Source of the DNA: Phycisphaerales bacterium
Lineage (GTDB): Bacteria; Planctomycetota; Phycisphaerae; Phycisphaerales; UBA1924
Length of the DNA stretch: 64,000 nt
Assembly: GCA_022843045.1 (NCBI GenBank)
Contig: JALHOJ010000003.1
Span: 1-64,000 of the forward strand
Direction: 5' to 3'
Below, piece by piece: positions 15,615-51,555 of the stretch. How positions within the stretch are numbered: the first letter of the stretch is position 1; every line of letters starts with the position of its first letter. The translations under genes were made by a program, and so were the position numbers. The notes beneath the pieces are model-generated. The model was not told the DNA's origin and did no database searches. It saw only the letters and a list, made by a program, of their open reading frames with translations.

Positions 15615-16469
15615 TCAGCGGCGGCGGCGGACTGCGAAGAGTGAGAGGGCGAGGGTGGGGAGGAGGGTTGACGGGGTGGGGATGGGGATGTAGACGATGT
15701 CTTGGATGGTCCCAAAGTTGCCGTTGCCGAGGATTGGAACGGACCAGAGCGGGTCTTCGGCACCGAAAGCGTACTTGCGAAGGAAGCCTTGGTCGCTGGT
15801 GCCGCCTTGGAAGGTGACGAAGAGGTCGTTGTTGTTGGCGTCCATGTCGATGGACTGGATGGTGAAGCCAGGGACGGGGTTGAAGTTGCGCTGGCCTTCG
15901 AGGGTGCCGTCGGGTCGCCAGTACATGACTCGGTTGTTCTCGCCTGTGCCGCCATTGGACGTAACGAAGGCGTTGCCGATGGCGTCGTAGGCGATGCCTC
16001 CGACTTCGTTGAAGAAGTAGGTGCCTGGCGGTGGGGTGAGCATGATGAAGTCTGTGAAGGCAAGGGAGGAGTTGTAGACGAAAAGGTTCTCCCAGCTGAC
16101 TTGGACGAGTTCGCTGCCGCGCGTCGCGAGGCGGGTGGGAGTGAAGCCAGTGCTGAGCGGAGTTGGGGTGACGATGCCAGTCAGCGGGTCTACCCTACCA
16201 AAATAGGATGCTGTTGATGAAGTAATAAAAACATACAATTCGCTATTCACGTATGCTATTGATCTTGTGACTAAAGATTGCGAACCGTCAAAACTACGTA
16301 GTTGCAATGATCCGACGTATGATCCGTTGGATGATGAATACTGTCGAATAATTCCGTTCCCTTGTGCCCCAACCAATACAGTTCCGGGCAGCGGGGAGAG
16401 TGCTGCGTAAGTGGATTGTTGGCTCAAGATGATGCAACCGAGGATGGCGAGTGTGGTGTAGTGCTTCAT
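15615..16469 (-). CDS. Secreted protein with PEP-CTERM-like C-terminal sorting signal
   Basis: 284 residues. Signal peptide MKHYTTLAILGCIILSQQSTYA; the start ATG 16469 has GGAG 8-9 bases upstream, so the track start at 16496 is rejected. The middle is a beta-rich sequence with repeated short motifs (IAYVNSELYVF, GGIAYDAIGNAFVT, IDMDANNNDLFVTF) suggesting a beta-propeller. The end, PIPTPSTLLPTLALSLFAVRRRR, has the three parts of a PEP-CTERM type anchor: Pro motif, hydrophobic helix, Arg cluster. Such proteins are normally processed by an exosortase, none of which is in the window. The 5' part (about 16200-16470) is clearly AT-richer than the surroundings. Confidence 0.8.
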   Translation of the reverse strand: MKHYTTLAILGCIILSQQSTYAALSPLPGTVLVGAQGNGIIRQYSSSNGSYVGSLQLRSFDGSQSLVTRSIAYVNSELYVFITSSTASYFGRVDPLTGIVTPTPLSTGFTPTRLATRGSELVQVSWENLFVYNSSLAFTDFIMLTPPPGTYFFNEVGGIAYDAIGNAFVTSNGGTGENNRVMYWRPDGTLEGQRNFNPVPGFTIQSIDMDANNNDLFVTFQGGTSDQGFLRKYAFGAEDPLWSVPILGNGNFGTIQDIVYIPIPTPSTLLPTLALSLFAVRRRR

Positions 16470-16473
16470 CAAT

Positions 16474-18903
16474 TTACTCCGGAATTCCAAATCCAACTCG
16501 CATGTATGAGTTGACGAATCGAGCTTCTAAAGCCGAGTTCCACAGTCCACGCCGTTGACTCCGGCAGAGGTTCATGTAAGCATCCACGACATCATTTTGA
16601 ACTCCTGTTGCTGGTGGTGGGACATTAAGAACGTCTTGCATGTACGTCGCGAGTGTGGGCTCGCCGGCTTCCGGGACATTAATGAACGGAACAAATGATG
16701 TTGTAGTTTCTCTCGTGACCGTGCGCCATCCTGGTTGCACATACTGATTGGGGGGAGTTTGCGGATACTGGAAGTTGGCGAACGCCGCGGGCTCATCGAT
16801 ATCCTCGGGCTGTGGGTTCGGATCTCCTTTCTGCGTTCGGAATCCGAGGTGTGGCGGATTGAGCGACATTAGGGCGTAGTACTGATTTCCCTGCCACGTG
16901 GAAGGTCCGGTTGTTGGCCCGACTGGGTTGAATCGTGCTCGTCCAATGTTCTTCATAGCGTTCTGGAAGAACGAGTTGCCCGTAAAGATGAAGTTAGGAC
17001 CGAGTGGTGCTTTGGCGACCGGGCCGTAGTACGGGACTTGCGTGGGCGACTGCGGCTGCAGCGCCTTCTGGTTATCGATGTTGATGCAATAGCCGCCGGT
17101 CGTCCCCCCGCCGAACCAGTTGTAAAAGACATTCTGCTCGACGAGTGCAGAATATGTGGCGATATAGGCGGGATTAGGCTTGGGCTCTTGATCGTCGTTG
17201 ATGTATAAACCCGCAGTGCCACCGATTGCACCATCCACGTTGAGCGCGACGAGATTGCGATACACGTGTGCAGCTTTGACGAGTTCGTTGGCCGTTCCCG
17301 AGGGGCCGCCTGTGTTCTCGTAGTAGTCGAACGATGCCCCGTTGCCAGTCTCGCCATCGAAGCGTCTACATCTGGTTAGGGTAATCCCATACCCACGCGC
17401 GTCACCATCAAGATCGACGCTGTTCAACTGGCGACCATTCACGGTCTGGCCGTTGACGACGCGAGACACCGGGACATCGTTCCACTTGTCGACGTTGGCC
17501 CCGTTGATGACAACGTTGTACTTGCACTCGCCGCGCCAGTATTTTTCAGGAATCGGCGGCTCGCTGAGTTCGCTGAGGGCGGGATTGGGGTTCCATTTGC
17601 CCTGATTCTGAGCGTGGCCGAGGGAAATGCCCATGGGAGCGCTGAGGACCAGGTTGTTCACGATGCGTTGGTTTCTGCCACGGGACTGGATGCCTGCGTG
17701 GGGCGGTCTGGACATGATGTTGTTGCGCACCAGCATGTGTTGGCTGCTGGCGGGCATGTACATGCCTTGGGAAAAGACATTCTTGGGGGCGAGCGGATTC
17801 ACGACCGGGACGGGCGGGGTGCGCAGGTCGGTGCTCATTACCACAGGGTGGTTGTTGAGATGGTTCCAGCCGCACTTGTGCCAGAAGTTGTCTTCGATGA
17901 GGCCCCACTTCACCGAGCCGAAGTACGCTCCGCCGCTGGTGGAGCCTTCGGGGTCGCCCTCGCCCCAGTTGAGGTTGCGTTGCCAGAAGTCCATCAGGAC
18001 GCAGCGGCGGATGGTGAGGCCGCGGATTGTTCTGGTGAGATGATTGCTGTCGTTGCCATCGATTTCGAAGGCGGTGCCGACGTTGTGGATGTACAGGTCT
18101 TCGAACAGGAATCGTGCGCCAGTCGAGCCTTTCTTCATGAAGGCAGAAGCGGGCTTGACTGGCACCCAGCCTGCCCCGATGCCGCTGGGGATGCTTTGAG
18201 AAGTGATTTCGAGGCCGATCACCCAGATGTCCCCGCCCCACTCTGCTTGAAAGCTATTCGCCGAGCCGCCCCGCATATCCCAGCAAGGGGCAGTACCTTC
18301 GCCGAGGCTTTTGACAGGGATCTTGATAACAGGACGATTGGCATCACCGCCAGTCATATTGGCTCGGGGCCAAGCTTCAATGACCAGAGGAAGGCTTGCG
18401 CCTTTTCCGCCCCAACTTGGCCCAGTGGACGGCGGAGGGGTCAGCACCTCGCCGTCGAACACCGATCCGCGCCAAAGCCGGAGGCGAGCGCCCATCGGAT
18501 TCTGGTTGCAGCAGCGGGGATTGCCCGGAACGCCAGCCGGACGAATGGGATCGTTCAGACGCATCCAAGCGGTAGCGATGTGACGCAGCGGGGCGGCTTC
18601 AGACGTTTCCGGGTTGGGGCTGCCGTTGGGCAAGGTATCTGCTCCCCAGTCCGCCACGTAGACGATTTGTTTGGGGTCTAGGGTGCTGTCGTCGGGTGGA
18701 TCGGTCCAATCGTTGCTCAGATTGCTATCCGTGGCGCTGGACAACCACGGGCGGAAGTAGTCACCGACATCTTCGTAACACGTTGGGTCGTTGACCGGAT
18801 CACAGCCCGGCGGCACGAATTGGGCCGATGCTGTTGTTCCGAAAAAGCTGATAGCTACGAACGCTACCCCCCCCAGCACGCCGAGCAAACCACGCTGCAA
18901 CAT
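16474..18903 (-). CDS. Large secreted protein, probably a right-handed parallel beta-helix
   Basis: 809 residues from ATG 18903, preceded by GGGAG at 8-base spacing; the track start at 19005 lies upstream of the signal peptide (MLQRGLLGVLGGVAFVAISFFGTTASA). The centre has repeated short strands with NN and N-x-I turns (LLVRNNIMSR, QRIVNNLVLS, ALVEQNVFYN, FIFTGNSFFQ), the pattern of pectate-lyase-like beta-helix proteins. No polysaccharide-lyase catalytic triad is recognised, so the function stays open. It ends 5 bases before the PEP-CTERM-like gene starts, so the two are probably co-transcribed. Base composition is more AT-rich than flanking genes, suggesting later acquisition. Confidence 0.82.
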   Translation of the reverse strand: MLQRGLLGVLGGVAFVAISFFGTTASAQFVPPGCDPVNDPTCYEDVGDYFRPWLSSATDSNLSNDWTDPPDDSTLDPKQIVYVADWGADTLPNGSPNPETSEAAPLRHIATAWMRLNDPIRPAGVPGNPRCCNQNPMGARLRLWRGSVFDGEVLTPPPSTGPSWGGKGASLPLVIEAWPRANMTGGDANRPVIKIPVKSLGEGTAPCWDMRGGSANSFQAEWGGDIWVIGLEITSQSIPSGIGAGWVPVKPASAFMKKGSTGARFLFEDLYIHNVGTAFEIDGNDSNHLTRTIRGLTIRRCVLMDFWQRNLNWGEGDPEGSTSGGAYFGSVKWGLIEDNFWHKCGWNHLNNHPVVMSTDLRTPPVPVVNPLAPKNVFSQGMYMPASSQHMLVRNNIMSRPPHAGIQSRGRNQRIVNNLVLSAPMGISLGHAQNQGKWNPNPALSELSEPPIPEKYWRGECKYNVVINGANVDKWNDVPVSRVVNGQTVNGRQLNSVDLDGDARGYGITLTRCRRFDGETGNGASFDYYENTGGPSGTANELVKAAHVYRNLVALNVDGAIGGTAGLYINDDQEPKPNPAYIATYSALVEQNVFYNWFGGGTTGGYCINIDNQKALQPQSPTQVPYYGPVAKAPLGPNFIFTGNSFFQNAMKNIGRARFNPVGPTTGPSTWQGNQYYALMSLNPPHLGFRTQKGDPNPQPEDIDEPAAFANFQYPQTPPNQYVQPGWRTVTRETTTSFVPFINVPEAGEPTLATYMQDVLNVPPPATGVQNDVVDAYMNLCRSQRRGLWNSALEARFVNSYMRVGFGIPE

Positions 18904-19054
18904 GTCGATACTCCCGAGCAAGATGGTCACGCTTGGCATGGCAAGCCCACCGAGGCAAGCACGCAGCGCGACAAGGCAAGATACCACGGGTTGGCGGGTT
19001 GGCAAGGAAAAGTGGTCCGATCACTGCGATTTAGTGCGGTCCTACGCTGGCCCG

Positions 19055-45023: not shown

Positions 45024-45098
45024 TCACGCCGCTACCGTCGCGCTGCTGGTCTCGCTCCACGCCCCAATCGCCCCGCGCTGGGTGACCCAGCGGGCCAT
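45024..45098. repeat. 75-bp direct repeat, left copy
   Basis: Differs from 46851-46925 at three positions by my alignment. Encodes the C-terminal module of the fragment. Confidence 0.8.
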
Positions 45099-45180
45099 GG
45101 AGACGGCGGTCTTGCCCAAAGCCGCCTTTGCGTACACGGCGCGGATACTTGGGCTGGTCATCATGGTCAGGAAGGAAAAG

Positions 45181-46850: not shown

Positions 46851-46925
46851 TCACGCCGCCACCGTCGCGCTGCTGGTCTCGCTCCACGCCCCAATCGCCC
46901 CGCGCCGCGTGACCCAGCGGGCCAT
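46851..46925. repeat. 75-bp direct repeat, right copy
   Basis: Right copy of the repeat at 45024-45098, same orientation. The two copies bracket the permease-thioredoxin pair. Confidence 0.8.
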
Positions 46926-47534
46926 GTAGTGGGCCTGCATGCCGCCCTGCGAAGCCTCGAACGAGAGCGTCATCGATCCATCGCTCACGCTCTGCACGTA
47001 GCGATACGCCCGCTCGTCGGCGGGCGCTGGCGTCGCGGGCGGCGTGAGCGCGACGAAGACCTCGGCCCGCTCGACCCCGCGCGGCCGGGCCCGCCGCGCA
47101 GGCGAGCCATCATCCACCAGCCGCAGCGTGTGCGTCAGCCGCTGCCCGCTGTCAGCAATCACGACCGGCCGACTCGCCGGCGCAGGCAGCGCACCGCGCT
47201 GCGTCACGCGCGGGGAAATCCCCATCGCCGCGCGATCGGCGTTGGTGGTCGCCGGATAGCTCTGCACAAACGCCGTGATCGGCCGCACCACCCGCTCCAC
47301 CCGCGCCCGAGCCGCGTCCTTGGACTGCGTCGCCGCCTGCGCTGCGGCCTGAGCCGCCACCGCCTGCGCAAACGCCGAGTCCCACACCCCGGCCGCCAAC
47401 TGCAGCTCCAGCAGCATCCCTTCATCCAGCCCGTGCGTCACAAAGAACGCCGACACCGTGGGCACATACTGCCGCAGCCACGCCGAGAAGTCGCCATCGG
47501 GCCGGGGGATGTAGTTGTTGCTGGAGGAGGACAT
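46851..47534 (-). CDS. Protein family of unknown function with C-terminal GPWSE-like (fibronectin-like) module, full-length copy
   Basis: 227 residues. N-terminal half is helical and Ala-rich (IPRPDGDFSAWLRQYVPTVSAFF, then AAAQAATQSKDAARARVERVVRPITAFVQ), followed by a MGISPR turn and beta segments TLRLVDDGSPARRARPRGVERAEVFVAL, YMARWVTRRGAIGAWSETSSATVA at the end. Such proteins are common as hypothetical genes in planctomycetes and related phyla, and the last part looks like a fibronectin type III strand pair. No signal peptide. Two further partial copies are at 45024 (minus) and 48052 (plus). Role unknown. Confidence 0.75.
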   Translation of the reverse strand: MSSSSNNYIPRPDGDFSAWLRQYVPTVSAFFVTHGLDEGMLLELQLAAGVWDSAFAQAVAAQAAAQAATQSKDAARARVERVVRPITAFVQSYPATTNADRAAMGISPRVTQRGALPAPASRPVVIADSGQRLTHTLRLVDDGSPARRARPRGVERAEVFVALTPPATPAPADERAYRYVQSVSDGSMTLSFEASQGGMQAHYMARWVTRRGAIGAWSETSSATVAA

Positions 47535-48051
47535 GGGGGAAAGCGAAAAGCGGAAAGCGAAAAGCGAAAATCAAAGACAGGACAAGGCGGGTCGCGGAGG
47601 GGGCGGAGAGGGGCGGAGCAACGCGGAGGAGGGAATTGGGTTGGTGTGGGCAAGCGTGCTTGCTGCGCATCCCAGTCTGCTTCTCAGCGTTCCTTCGCTT
47701 GCCTTCGCAACCTCCGCGATCTTCCTACCGAGCAAAGCGATCCGTCTTGGTGCCGCGCCCATGCTCGCCACGGCCCGCGACACCACGCGCCGCATCCAGC
47801 CATCGGCCCACGAGCCCCGCCACTTCACCCGGCGACATGATTTTGCAACTTGGCGTCCCCGCCCCTCAATCCGTCCACGCCGCCCCTGAACCCGTCAAGG
47901 CCGCCCACAGGCCCGCCCGCGCCGCCGATCGATCCGGCGATGCCGCCCACCGATCCGGCGAACCCGCCCCCGCCCACGGCGGCAAGCAAATCCCACGCTC
48001 GCCCATGCGCACCCCGCGCCGACCGACCCCGCCGCGCTCACGTTCCTGACC
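47535..48051. other. Gene-poor 517 bases with GCGAAAA-type repeats and Pro-rich frame
   Basis: Begins with tandem GGAAAGCGAAAAGCG units (47527-47570), then GGCGGAGAGGGGCGGAG units. The second half (47850-48050) is a Pro/Ala-rich triplet-like run (CCGATCCGGCGA repeats) that might be decayed coding sequence upstream of the fragment at 48052. No intact gene seen. Confidence 0.4.
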
Positions 48052-48228
48052 ATGACCACCAAGCCGAGTGTCAGCTTTGAGATGAAGGCGGGCGAGGGCG
48101 GAAAACTAGCCGTCTATGTGACCCGCTGGGTTAAGGCCCGGGGCGAAAAAGGGCCGTGGAACGAGTTCACTACTGCGACGGTGGCGTCCCGGACGCTGCC
48201 CCCGCGTCGAGACGCGGTGCGAACATGA
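48052..48228 (+). pseudogene. C-terminal fragment of the GPWSE-type family
   Basis: 58 residues from an internal ATG. KAGEGGKLAVYVTRWVKARG and EKGPWNEFTTATVA are the terminal module of the family at 46851, here on the other strand. In-frame codons upstream (HPAPTDPAALTFLT) continue the family-like pattern for about 20 residues before it becomes unrecognisable. Convergent with the TrlF-like gene. The low GC-bias end (CTAGCC, TATGTG codons) suggests older acquired DNA. Confidence 0.5.
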
Positions 48229-48254: not shown

Positions 48255-51236
48255 CTACCGCTCGGTGCGCACTCGAAGCCGCCTTGCACGTTCGCGGAAT
48301 GCCGATTCCCCGCCTTCTAAGATATCGCACACGAGCTTGCGGATCGGGGCCTCTTCGAGACCGCCTGACGTATATGTGATTTGAGGTAGCTGTCCAGGGA
48401 GGCGTGCTCCCGCAGACGCAACGATGACTTGGTCCGCATCGGTGTTGATGACTAGGTTCGCGTTGTGCGTGACCAGGATGACCTGACGTTTGGCCTTTGC
48501 AGCACGGAAGAGCGGGACTAACTCGTCGTAAATGGACTTCGGGTCCAAGTTCTCTTCCGGCTGGTCAACGATCAGCGGACGGTCGTCCGCATCATCGAGT
48601 GCGAGATAGAGAAGCAGCAGCACGATCCCGCGCGTTCCGGGGGACAGCTTTCGGATATCTACACCGTCGTAGTCGATGCTGTACTGCAGCGTAATGTGGT
48701 CGGTGCTGTACAGCCATTTGGCGAATCGCTTGAGCCAGTCCCGGTAGTTCGCCAGTTCAGACGGCGGAATCGTGCTTGGGCCCAGTAGTTCTTCGCGATT
48801 CTGCTGGAAGAACGTGGCCATTGCCGCGCCAACCGCTGCGGGATCACCCGCCTCCCACACCGCTTTTAGAGAGGTATCGGCCAACTGCCTGAGCCGGCCG
48901 CGCCCCTTGAAAGTGCCCTGCACCCGGAGGTCGCGTAGGCTCTCGCCGCGCTCCGCCCACGCACCGAGATCGATGTGCCGCTTGACCGTAAAGGACAGCT
49001 TCGCGATGGCACCGACACCCTTTCCGATGCGGGCATGCAACGGCGCATAGAGGTCGGTCAGCACCTGCTGCTCCGAGACGATTGATTCGAAAACCCGCAC
49101 ATACGTGGATTCGCGTTCTTGTTGCGCCGTTGCGATCCGCTGGTTGGCGCCTTCACAGTCTGTGAGCTTCTCTTTTAGTCTCGCAAGTGCAACGGTCTCT
49201 TCATCGATCCGCTTCGAAATCGCCGCAAACTTGCTCGCCGTGTCCTTGTCCACATTGACTATGCCCTGCACTCTCGCAATCTCAGCCTCAAGGATCGCCA
49301 ATGGCTGTTCGTCAAGCTTGGCATCATTGGTGATGAATGGTGAGTTCTGATCGGCGTTCGGTGCCGGTGGCGTACCCTTCCAGTCCTTCGTGTCCTTCTC
49401 GTTCTGCGCTTGATTTGCCGTGATTGCGGCGTCTACGTCTCCCTTGAACTCGAGCAGGAATCGTTCCCAGTCCGTGTCCTTCAGCCCGCTAGGCTGGAAC
49501 TTGGTCTTGGACTGTCGAAGCGTTTCCGGTCCCCTTCGCGTGCGGTGGTCTTGGACATCCTGTTTCAACGCCAGCAGGGATTGTTTTTGGTTGGCGAAGT
49601 ATCGCAGGTACCCGCGTACCGTCTCCGCCGCCTGAGTCAGGGCCTCGAGCCGCTTCACGCGCTCCTCACTGCCCTTGGATACCAACTTTGCGCGATCGAT
49701 CTTGTATCTCGCTATAAGGTTTGTCTTTTCGGTGATGGCAGCGCGGAGCGAGGGAACGAGCGTTTCCTTCTCTCTGTCCGCGCCAATCCGCTCAGACTGC
49801 TCGGCCAAGGCAGCGTCTTCAGCCTGCCGGGTTTGCCGAAGCACGGCCACGCGCAGATCGAGCAACTCATCGAAGTTCGACGTGCCGTCACGGTCGGTGA
49901 GCGGGTGTGCCTCATAGATTACCCGCTGAATCTCGTTGATGAGCCCATCGGTCACGCGATCTGCTGCGCAAAGTTCTTCGACGAACTGCTGGGAGAGATA
50001 CCTCGCACGCGGATAGCTATCCGCACTTCCGGCTCGTCCCTCCTGGGGCTTGCGGTCCACTGACTCCCCCGACAGCCAGACCACCTTTGCGGTTACTCCC
50101 GTGAGCAGGTCCGCCGCCCTGCGAAGAAAGGAATTCTCGTTCTGGTGCTCCGAAAGCGAGTCACAGCCCAGCGAGATCATCTCTGCAAGTGCAGACTTTC
50201 CGGAACCTCTCGCACCAATGATGGCAACAAGTCCCGGATTTAACGCGACCCTCGGCGTGCGTGCCCAGGCCGCACCCGCAATCTCAATCGAAGAAAGGGC
50301 CTGTGAAGAAATCGTTCCGCTCGGTGGTTGTGGGCCGACGAACGCTCGACCCCGCGGGTCGATCAAGGCCTGCCGTAGGGTGTCGAACGCGACCAGACCC
50401 TTCACCCACGTATAGCGATCTTCGGCGGGCGCGCCGACCTTTGAGAGATCGTGCGCATCGCAGCCGTGAATGCAGGGCTTCGGTCCCCCATACTTTTCTT
50501 CCAGTTCTTGGACCGTCGCCGCACCGTCTCCCAGCCAGAATGCCCGCTGGGCTGGGCTGCCCGCAAAGATGACGTGCGCAAACTTCTCGATCTCTGTGCG
50601 CAGTGTCGCGTCGGCACCATCACGAACGCCGGAGCTACCGTCCGTTTCAGCAGCCGCAACCCCAATCAGTATGTTCTCGCTGGCCCACGCGCTCTTCGTG
50701 AACGCGTCTCGCAGGTTGGACAACTCGACCTTGAACTGTTCCACGCCCTTCCTCATCGCGGCAATGCCGCTCAGTGAGCGGTCCGTATGTGTGCCGAGCT
50801 TCGTGAGGTCGGAATCGGTACAGGTGAACGTGTCGCCGCCGACTTCGAACTTTAGCCTGCTCATAAACCTCTTAGCTTCTTCGAGGTGAGTCGATGCGTC
50901 AGGGCAAATGAGCAGGTGAATATTGACGTACCTCCCCTTTACGGTCCCCACCGCCAACCGCATCTCAACGTTTGCGAAGATGAGCCGAACTTGCGGCAGC
51001 CGGCCTTTGGCCTTCTCTGCCACAACTCGTTCGTATGTTGCCAGCGAGCAATAGTCCGTTATGCCTAAGGCAGCAATCACGGGGCTAGCCTGTTCGATCT
51101 TCGTGAGATACCGCTCCCACGCGTCAGGTCCCGTGAAATGATCGCTCAGGTGCGTTCCCGGTGCATGGATATGCGGGTCCCAGCGATGCCAATGGGATCC
51201 GGAGTTCGGTTGTGGTGGGGTTGATGTCCCGCTCAT
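48255..51236 (-). CDS. TrlF-like PHP-domain / SMC-type AAA ATPase (candidate defence protein)
   Basis: 993 residues from ATG 51236 (MSGTSTPPQPNS). Residues 16-270 form a PHP phosphoesterase domain: WDPHIHAPGTH (HxH metal ligands), GITDYCS, and CIHGCDAHDL (255-264) near its end. The ATPase follows: Walker A GARGSGKSAL at 341-348, then a coiled-coil-rich middle (about 440-760), ABC signature LSPGTRG at 864, Walker B PLIVDQPEENLD about 888 and a VTHNANL switch His near 922. PHP plus Rad50/SMC-like ATPase in one chain is the TrlF arrangement found in defence islands; the PHP part is the likely nuclease or phosphatase effector. Base composition is lower in GC than flanking genes. Borders hold family fragments and palindromes, consistent with an accessory insertion. 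Confidence 0.88.
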   Translation of the reverse strand: MSGTSTPPQPNSGSHWHRWDPHIHAPGTHLSDHFTGPDAWERYLTKIEQASPVIAALGITDYCSLATYERVVAEKAKGRLPQVRLIFANVEMRLAVGTVKGRYVNIHLLICPDASTHLEEAKRFMSRLKFEVGGDTFTCTDSDLTKLGTHTDRSLSGIAAMRKGVEQFKVELSNLRDAFTKSAWASENILIGVAAAETDGSSGVRDGADATLRTEIEKFAHVIFAGSPAQRAFWLGDGAATVQELEEKYGGPKPCIHGCDAHDLSKVGAPAEDRYTWVKGLVAFDTLRQALIDPRGRAFVGPQPPSGTISSQALSSIEIAGAAWARTPRVALNPGLVAIIGARGSGKSALAEMISLGCDSLSEHQNENSFLRRAADLLTGVTAKVVWLSGESVDRKPQEGRAGSADSYPRARYLSQQFVEELCAADRVTDGLINEIQRVIYEAHPLTDRDGTSNFDELLDLRVAVLRQTRQAEDAALAEQSERIGADREKETLVPSLRAAITEKTNLIARYKIDRAKLVSKGSEERVKRLEALTQAAETVRGYLRYFANQKQSLLALKQDVQDHRTRRGPETLRQSKTKFQPSGLKDTDWERFLLEFKGDVDAAITANQAQNEKDTKDWKGTPPAPNADQNSPFITNDAKLDEQPLAILEAEIARVQGIVNVDKDTASKFAAISKRIDEETVALARLKEKLTDCEGANQRIATAQQERESTYVRVFESIVSEQQVLTDLYAPLHARIGKGVGAIAKLSFTVKRHIDLGAWAERGESLRDLRVQGTFKGRGRLRQLADTSLKAVWEAGDPAAVGAAMATFFQQNREELLGPSTIPPSELANYRDWLKRFAKWLYSTDHITLQYSIDYDGVDIRKLSPGTRGIVLLLLYLALDDADDRPLIVDQPEENLDPKSIYDELVPLFRAAKAKRQVILVTHNANLVINTDADQVIVASAGARLPGQLPQITYTSGGLEEAPIRKLVCDILEGGESAFRERARRLRVRTER

Positions 51237-51273
51237 TCGCGGGTCAATAGTACCAACTCTGGAGGGTCGTTCC

Positions 51274-51306
51274 GATGCCGGGGCTGCCGCCCCCGGCACC
51301 CCCGCT
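51274..51306. repeat. GATGCCGGGG palindrome, copy 1
   Basis: GATGCCGGGGCTGCCGCCCC CGGCACCCCCGCT: hairpin GCCGGGG/CCCCGGC. Near-identical to 51421-51456. Confidence 0.7.
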
Positions 51307-51420
51307 TAAGGCACTCGGAGCGCACGACCAGCGCGGCGGGCGGTTCCCTTCCGGGCCGGGAGAGGTGCGGAGAGGGCGGCACGCCCTCTCTGCATCAGCC
51401 GTCATGACTCGTCGCGCGCC

Positions 51421-51456
51421 GATGCCGGGGGCTGCCGCCCCCCGGCACCCCCCGCT
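51421..51456. repeat. GATGCCGGGG palindrome, copy 2
   Basis: GATGCCGGGGGCTGCCGCCC CCCGGCACCCCCCGCT: same element with longer G and C runs; the lengths of both runs changed together, which keeps the stem. Confidence 0.7.
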
Positions 51457-51555
51457 GGGATGCGTGAAGGAGCGCGAAGCGTGTGGGGCTGCCGCCCTCG
51501 CGGGCCTGCGCCCCCCGCTTCAAAGAACTAACGGGCGTGGCCCGCGCGTCAAACC

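Follow-up and report, generated by a model that had tools for sequence, protein, structure and literature searches.

Introduction

PHP domains act as phosphoesterases or nucleases that depend on metal, and the heads of SMC and Rad50 proteins bind DNA and undergo ATP-driven switching. Ppl (NF042955; PADLOC PDLC02208) carries a PHP domain and an SMC-type ATPase in one chain. It has been reviewed as an NTP-inhibited 3'-5' exonuclease of single-stranded DNA, triggered by phage-caused nucleotide depletion together with free 3' ends (PMC12904381). Wadjet, Lamassu and PARIS are multi-gene systems with separate effectors.

TrlF proteins take their name from trlR-trlF-trlG, the temperature restriction locus of Photorhabdus, whose three genes form an operon restricting growth at 36 °C (PMC7554251). 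The mutations selected there lay in trlG and none in trlF (PMC7554251); trlF had no demonstrated role in the temperature restriction operon, and the name misleads. A gene pair similar to the trl genes sits within restriction loci (PMC12255303) and, going by the gene descriptions and the 79-residue length of both regulators, appears to correspond to trlG-trlF. Our literature search found no phage assay or other functional test of any TrlF member.

Here we describe a further member of this already known family, encoded in a 64,000-nucleotide stretch of a Phycisphaerales contig (the window). The original prediction, made from the DNA letters, was of a TrlF-like PHP-SMC ATPase as a candidate single-gene defence.

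Results

The window gene is intact and real. The frame (48255..51299, minus strand) is open from a GTG at 51299, an alternative start; the ATG at 51236 fits the homologue starts in a nine-member alignment with plasmid homologues, in which similarity runs unbroken to the C-terminus, and gives the product that was first called (Table 1).

Table 1. Features of the TrlF locus, in window coordinates
Feature	Position	Strand	Basis or remark
TrlF-family PHP-SMC ATPase gene	48255..51236	-	993 aa from ATG at 51236
PHP domain, N-terminal, residues 1-296	50349..51236	-	Foldseek and residue conservation
N-terminal ATPase lobe around Walker A GARGSGK, residues ~324-374, K347	50115..50265	-	Rad50/SMC profile match; K347 invariant
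Coiled-coil arms, residues ~455-739	49020..49874	-	long helices in model
C-terminal ATPase lobe, residues ~848-993	48258..48695	-	AAA_21 and AriA/Rad50 profile matches; invariant residues
Full-length 227-aa paralogue	46851..47534	-	10 matches in own genome (five on contig C53), also in genus-mates
Truncated 227-aa paralogue, 3' side of gene	47947..48186	+	40% identity over query residues 144-226
Truncated 227-aa paralogue	45027-45179	-	family of predicted proteins without assigned function
Three GGGGCTGCCGCCCC-type palindromes, between gene and PrpD-like gene	51280..51498	.	motif count

The lower GC content noted in the original prediction is borne out but modest: the gene has 0.594, compared with 0.647 over the window and 0.67 in the left flank. 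Its GC3 is 0.69, the third lowest among 59 genes (mean 0.80, sd 0.06). Codon usage was rejected as a sign of foreign origin, the gene lying outside the 15 most deviant of the 59, so GC and GC3 are the sole compositional support for import. A second low-GC stretch (15615-19005, minus strand; 0.52 at 16-17 kb), with two ORFs of GC3 0.68-0.69, was possibly acquired.

The protein matches the NCBIfam TrlF model NF045780 with 680 bits (cut-off 350) over model positions 2-943 of 944. The layout of the family, with a PHP domain and a split SMC-like ATPase joined in one chain, is seen in the structural model, the Foldseek matches and the motifs. The full-length profile match and the domain-level structural matches bear out both the TrlF name and the PHP/SMC-type reading. 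TrlF-named plasmid proteins are 50-57% identical to the window protein over 97-99% of its length. Membership of Ppl was rejected by score, with 125.6 bits against the NF042955 cut-off of 1000. The Ppl and Spaf_1101 models match mainly the ATPase end, far under their cut-offs, and the likeness to Ppl (~106-126 bits) lies in the C-terminal ATPase, best over roughly the last 150 residues (835-987), with the PHP part unmatched by sequence. PADLOC, proposed with the original prediction as a check on defence, matched only the ATPase end, to Ppl.

The elements first read from the letters, a PHP domain, Walker A, coiled coil, LSPGT signature, Walker B and H-switch, are all present in one chain, and the conservation of the motifs across 59 close members shows that they did not match by chance. 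The PHP residues are H22-x-H24, D61, E91, H107 and D260-x-H262; the C-terminal lobe has the LSPGT signature, a VDQPEENLD Walker B and a THN H-switch (H924). Twelve residues (D61, E91, H107, D260, R343, K347, S865, G867, D891, Q892, E894 and H924) are invariant in 61 aligned members, while H22, H24, Y62, D199 and H262 show no variation among the 59 close members, the sole departures being in the very distant L002 and L003. The pattern of PHP metal ligands, taken from the alignment rather than from superposed coordinates, is conserved at HxH, E91, H107 and DxH, with TDH changed to TDY. The PHP domains of RNase AM and DNA polymerase III alpha have the same fold and the same HxH...E...H...DxH pattern; the window protein differs in having Tyr62, as all 59 close members do, in place of the histidine of the usual TDH motif, and in its fusion to an SMC-like ATPase. 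The tyrosine may mean that metal or substrate use differs from that of RNase AM.

An AlphaFold model from 61 homologues (mean pLDDT 88, pTM 0.74) has long helices within residues 455-739. Structure comparison, another check proposed at the outset, gives a PHP fold and an SMC-type head: Foldseek matched the ATPase head to SMC, MukB, the JetABC proteins of Wadjet, Rad50, RecN and Lamassu, and the N-terminus to the PHP domains of RNase AM (9etk and 7ug9; for 7ug9, TMt 0.57, rmsd 5.6) and Pol III alpha (2hpi, rmsd 5.8). Whole-chain TM-scores are low (~0.2), so these are domain-level matches, and among the 50 listed none is a solved chain with the whole PHP-SMC fusion. Pfam detects the ATPase lobes and gives no PHP hit in the N-terminal domain. 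The head fold and motifs are common to JetABC, LmuB of Lamassu and AriA of PARIS, the last also with a DQPE-type Walker B, but the window protein differs from these in having its effector domain fused.

Type I restriction loci within the taxonomic order of the window likewise encode TrlF-like proteins, at least one of which is without a PHP domain. ATPases of ~650 residues that have no PHP domain are encoded at L004:1495-3465 (minus) and L006:1444-3366 (plus), and at L005, L007 and L008. They score 305-320 bits, just under the TrlF cut-off, and the L004 gene overlaps a type I methyltransferase-like gene; these ATPases may be a separate restriction-associated family. Two distant members over the cut-off, L002 (genome G047) and L003 (G009), have TDH in place of TDY, and in the alignment they keep neither HxH nor DxH. 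At least one of the two lies among type I restriction genes. The PHP domain of these two may lack catalytic activity or may have been misaligned.

The gene is a single copy in its own genome and is absent from all three genus-mates. Two of these give weak matches to the PHP part of frames of ~1400-1600 codons, presumably DNA polymerase III alpha. Only two of 60 relatives, G009 and G047, exceed the NF045780 cut-off, and their proteins, merely 19-21% identical to the window protein, therefore belong to a different clade. The nearest protein comes from a Phycisphaerae MAG (L070, 59% identity), followed by proteins on plasmids of Bradyrhizobium (57%) and Methylosinus (56%). A quick tree groups the window gene with L070, L089 and the Bradyrhizobium plasmid copy with a support of 91, under the tool's 95 mark. 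Given its sporadic presence, its nearest kin on alphaproteobacterial plasmids and a GC3 about 2 sd under the neighbours' mean, the gene is accessory and very probably laterally acquired. It is not a gene that all close relatives carry at the same site with ordinary GC. A phage origin was rejected, as the protein is not matched over most of its length by any phage record. Binning contamination is unlikely: the contig also carries the PrpD-like neighbour, which shares 76-79% identity with its counterparts in the genus-mates, and the 227-residue paralogue recurs in the genus. The family as a whole is large and common on conjugative plasmids: one scan across species genomes confirmed at least 569 relatives, and 1071 plasmid records hold at least a partial match, 202 of them over 80% of the length.

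The PrpD-like gene adjoins on the 5' side and has a counterpart in each of the three genus-mates. Beyond the 3' end come first a truncated and then a full-length copy of the 227-residue paralogue, followed by a permease. The gene fragments and palindromes that the original prediction placed around the gene are both real: two copies of the 227-residue protein are truncated, and GGGGCTGCCGCCCC at one mismatch or fewer occurs three times within 51280-51498, against 0.14 expected in the window. The exact motif occurs only twice in the whole 4.08 Mb genome, both times there. Palindromes of this type form small clusters in genome G013, and a few copies occur in other genomes of the lineage. An alphaproteobacterial origin for them was rejected, the exact motif being absent from the other loci compared and the stretch having no plasmid match; with copies in lineage genomes, this leaves no evidence that they arrived with the gene. 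A comparison with empty sites found that the genes adjoining PrpD are not common to the loci of the genus-mates: the surroundings of PrpD vary in gene order even inside the genus, which leaves no insertion junction to define. In a genome of the same family, a PrpD homologue adjoins a gene for Cas12g, the type V-G effector (G009:C3, L061:12291-14735, plus strand; PADLOC 1019 bits).

PADLOC found no other convincing defence gene among 65 proteins on ~104 kb of the 105.6-kb contig; the 25 families listed comprise only promiscuous kinase models and the gene's own weak matches. The gene thus lies outside any recognisable defence island in its own genome. Standing apart from other defence genes, with truncated paralogue fragments and low-copy palindromes on its flanks, this single copy might be an import that is decaying or inert and now serves no function in its host. 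We consider this quite unlikely, since 993 codons are open and every invariant residue is kept despite ~41% protein divergence from the nearest kin.

Homologues elsewhere have different company. Twelve annotated plasmid loci were read for neighbours within a few kb. A Bradyrhizobium plasmid has a CBASS cyclase with SAVED and AbiV, and in Agrobacterium Kin002 AbiEi and AbiEii run directly into the TrlF gene. VapC pairs stand beside it in Paracoccus, Sphingomonas and S. fredii, RelE/ParE in A. rubi, a restriction endonuclease and a caspase-family protein in S. meliloti, and XcyI restriction-modification in A. pusense; other plasmid neighbours are relaxase, T4SS, and integrase or recombinase genes. 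Among 124 immediate neighbours of genomic homologues, PADLOC found AbiEi, DrmD (DISARM), HamB (Hachiman), type IIG and type III restriction enzymes, QatA, RT-Toprim and LmuB, and Pfam adds T4SS coupling proteins, IS21, PIN and RES. In a control of 72 planctomycete genes, the hits were mainly to kinase models, plus a single Cas12g. Defence genes are recurrent neighbours of TrlF homologues, a qualitative association read by family rather than from counts per protein, against a control set that is not plasmid-matched.

Many homologues also adjoin plasmid partition, relaxase, T4SS or SOS/UmuD genes, and the head and coiled-coil folds match Rad50, RecN and SMC. The protein could on these grounds be an ATPase-nuclease of plasmid maintenance or DNA repair, a functional analogue of SbcCD or RecN carried as accessory cargo and not a defence. 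Such a role is unlikely for a gene that is sporadic in its lineage and a chromosomal orphan here, and whose homologues recurrently neighbour abortive-infection, CBASS, restriction and toxin-antitoxin genes.

The single-gene description in the original prediction holds, for the gene is an orphan here and in its near homologues. The Photorhabdus laumondii namesake lies within the trlR-trlF-trlG operon, whereas no trlR- or trlG-like partner was found beside the window copy or is annotated beside the 12 plasmid homologues, and the NF045780 model does not require such partners. The operon that restricts Photorhabdus growth could suggest a stress- or temperature-dependent growth-restriction factor, but with these partners missing, the selected mutations in trlG and the similar gene pair inside restriction loci, that role is very improbable.

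Discussion

The window gene most likely encodes a laterally acquired, stand-alone TrlF PHP-SMC protein that defends against invading DNA, phage or plasmid, and we hold this reading with reasonable confidence. It draws on the intact domains, the conserved putative PHP metal site and ATPase motifs, the sporadic presence, and near kin on conjugative plasmids with defence and toxin-antitoxin genes. The defence role first proposed gains from the defence neighbours of homologues elsewhere and loses from the ~104 kb of its own contig without another convincing defence gene, and stays a predicted role. It also counts against defence that any plasmid cargo gene would have such plasmid neighbours.

By analogy with Ppl, which has the same PHP and SMC layout, the protein is probably a nuclease that ATP gates and that attacks invading DNA, with activity, trigger and target all predicted; that the resemblance to Ppl is mainly in the C-terminal ATPase counts against the overall reading. 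The two ATPase lobes would assemble on ATP, probably in a dimer, and the coiled-coil head would engage abnormal DNA such as ends or replication intermediates. A change in nucleotide state would then free the PHP domain to degrade nucleic acid.

More tentatively, and with rather less than even confidence, we suggest that orphan TrlF proteins make up an immune system of one gene, separate from Ppl, that is widespread and mobilised by plasmids. Its SMC-type head would sense foreign or broken DNA and gate a built-in PHP nuclease whose TDH histidine has become tyrosine; the Photorhabdus locus would be its partner-bearing version. The planctomycete copy shows cross-phylum reach rather than new chemistry. 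If TrlF is a one-protein immune system, it would stand beside Wadjet, Lamassu and similar SMC-type defences as a counterpart with a fused effector.
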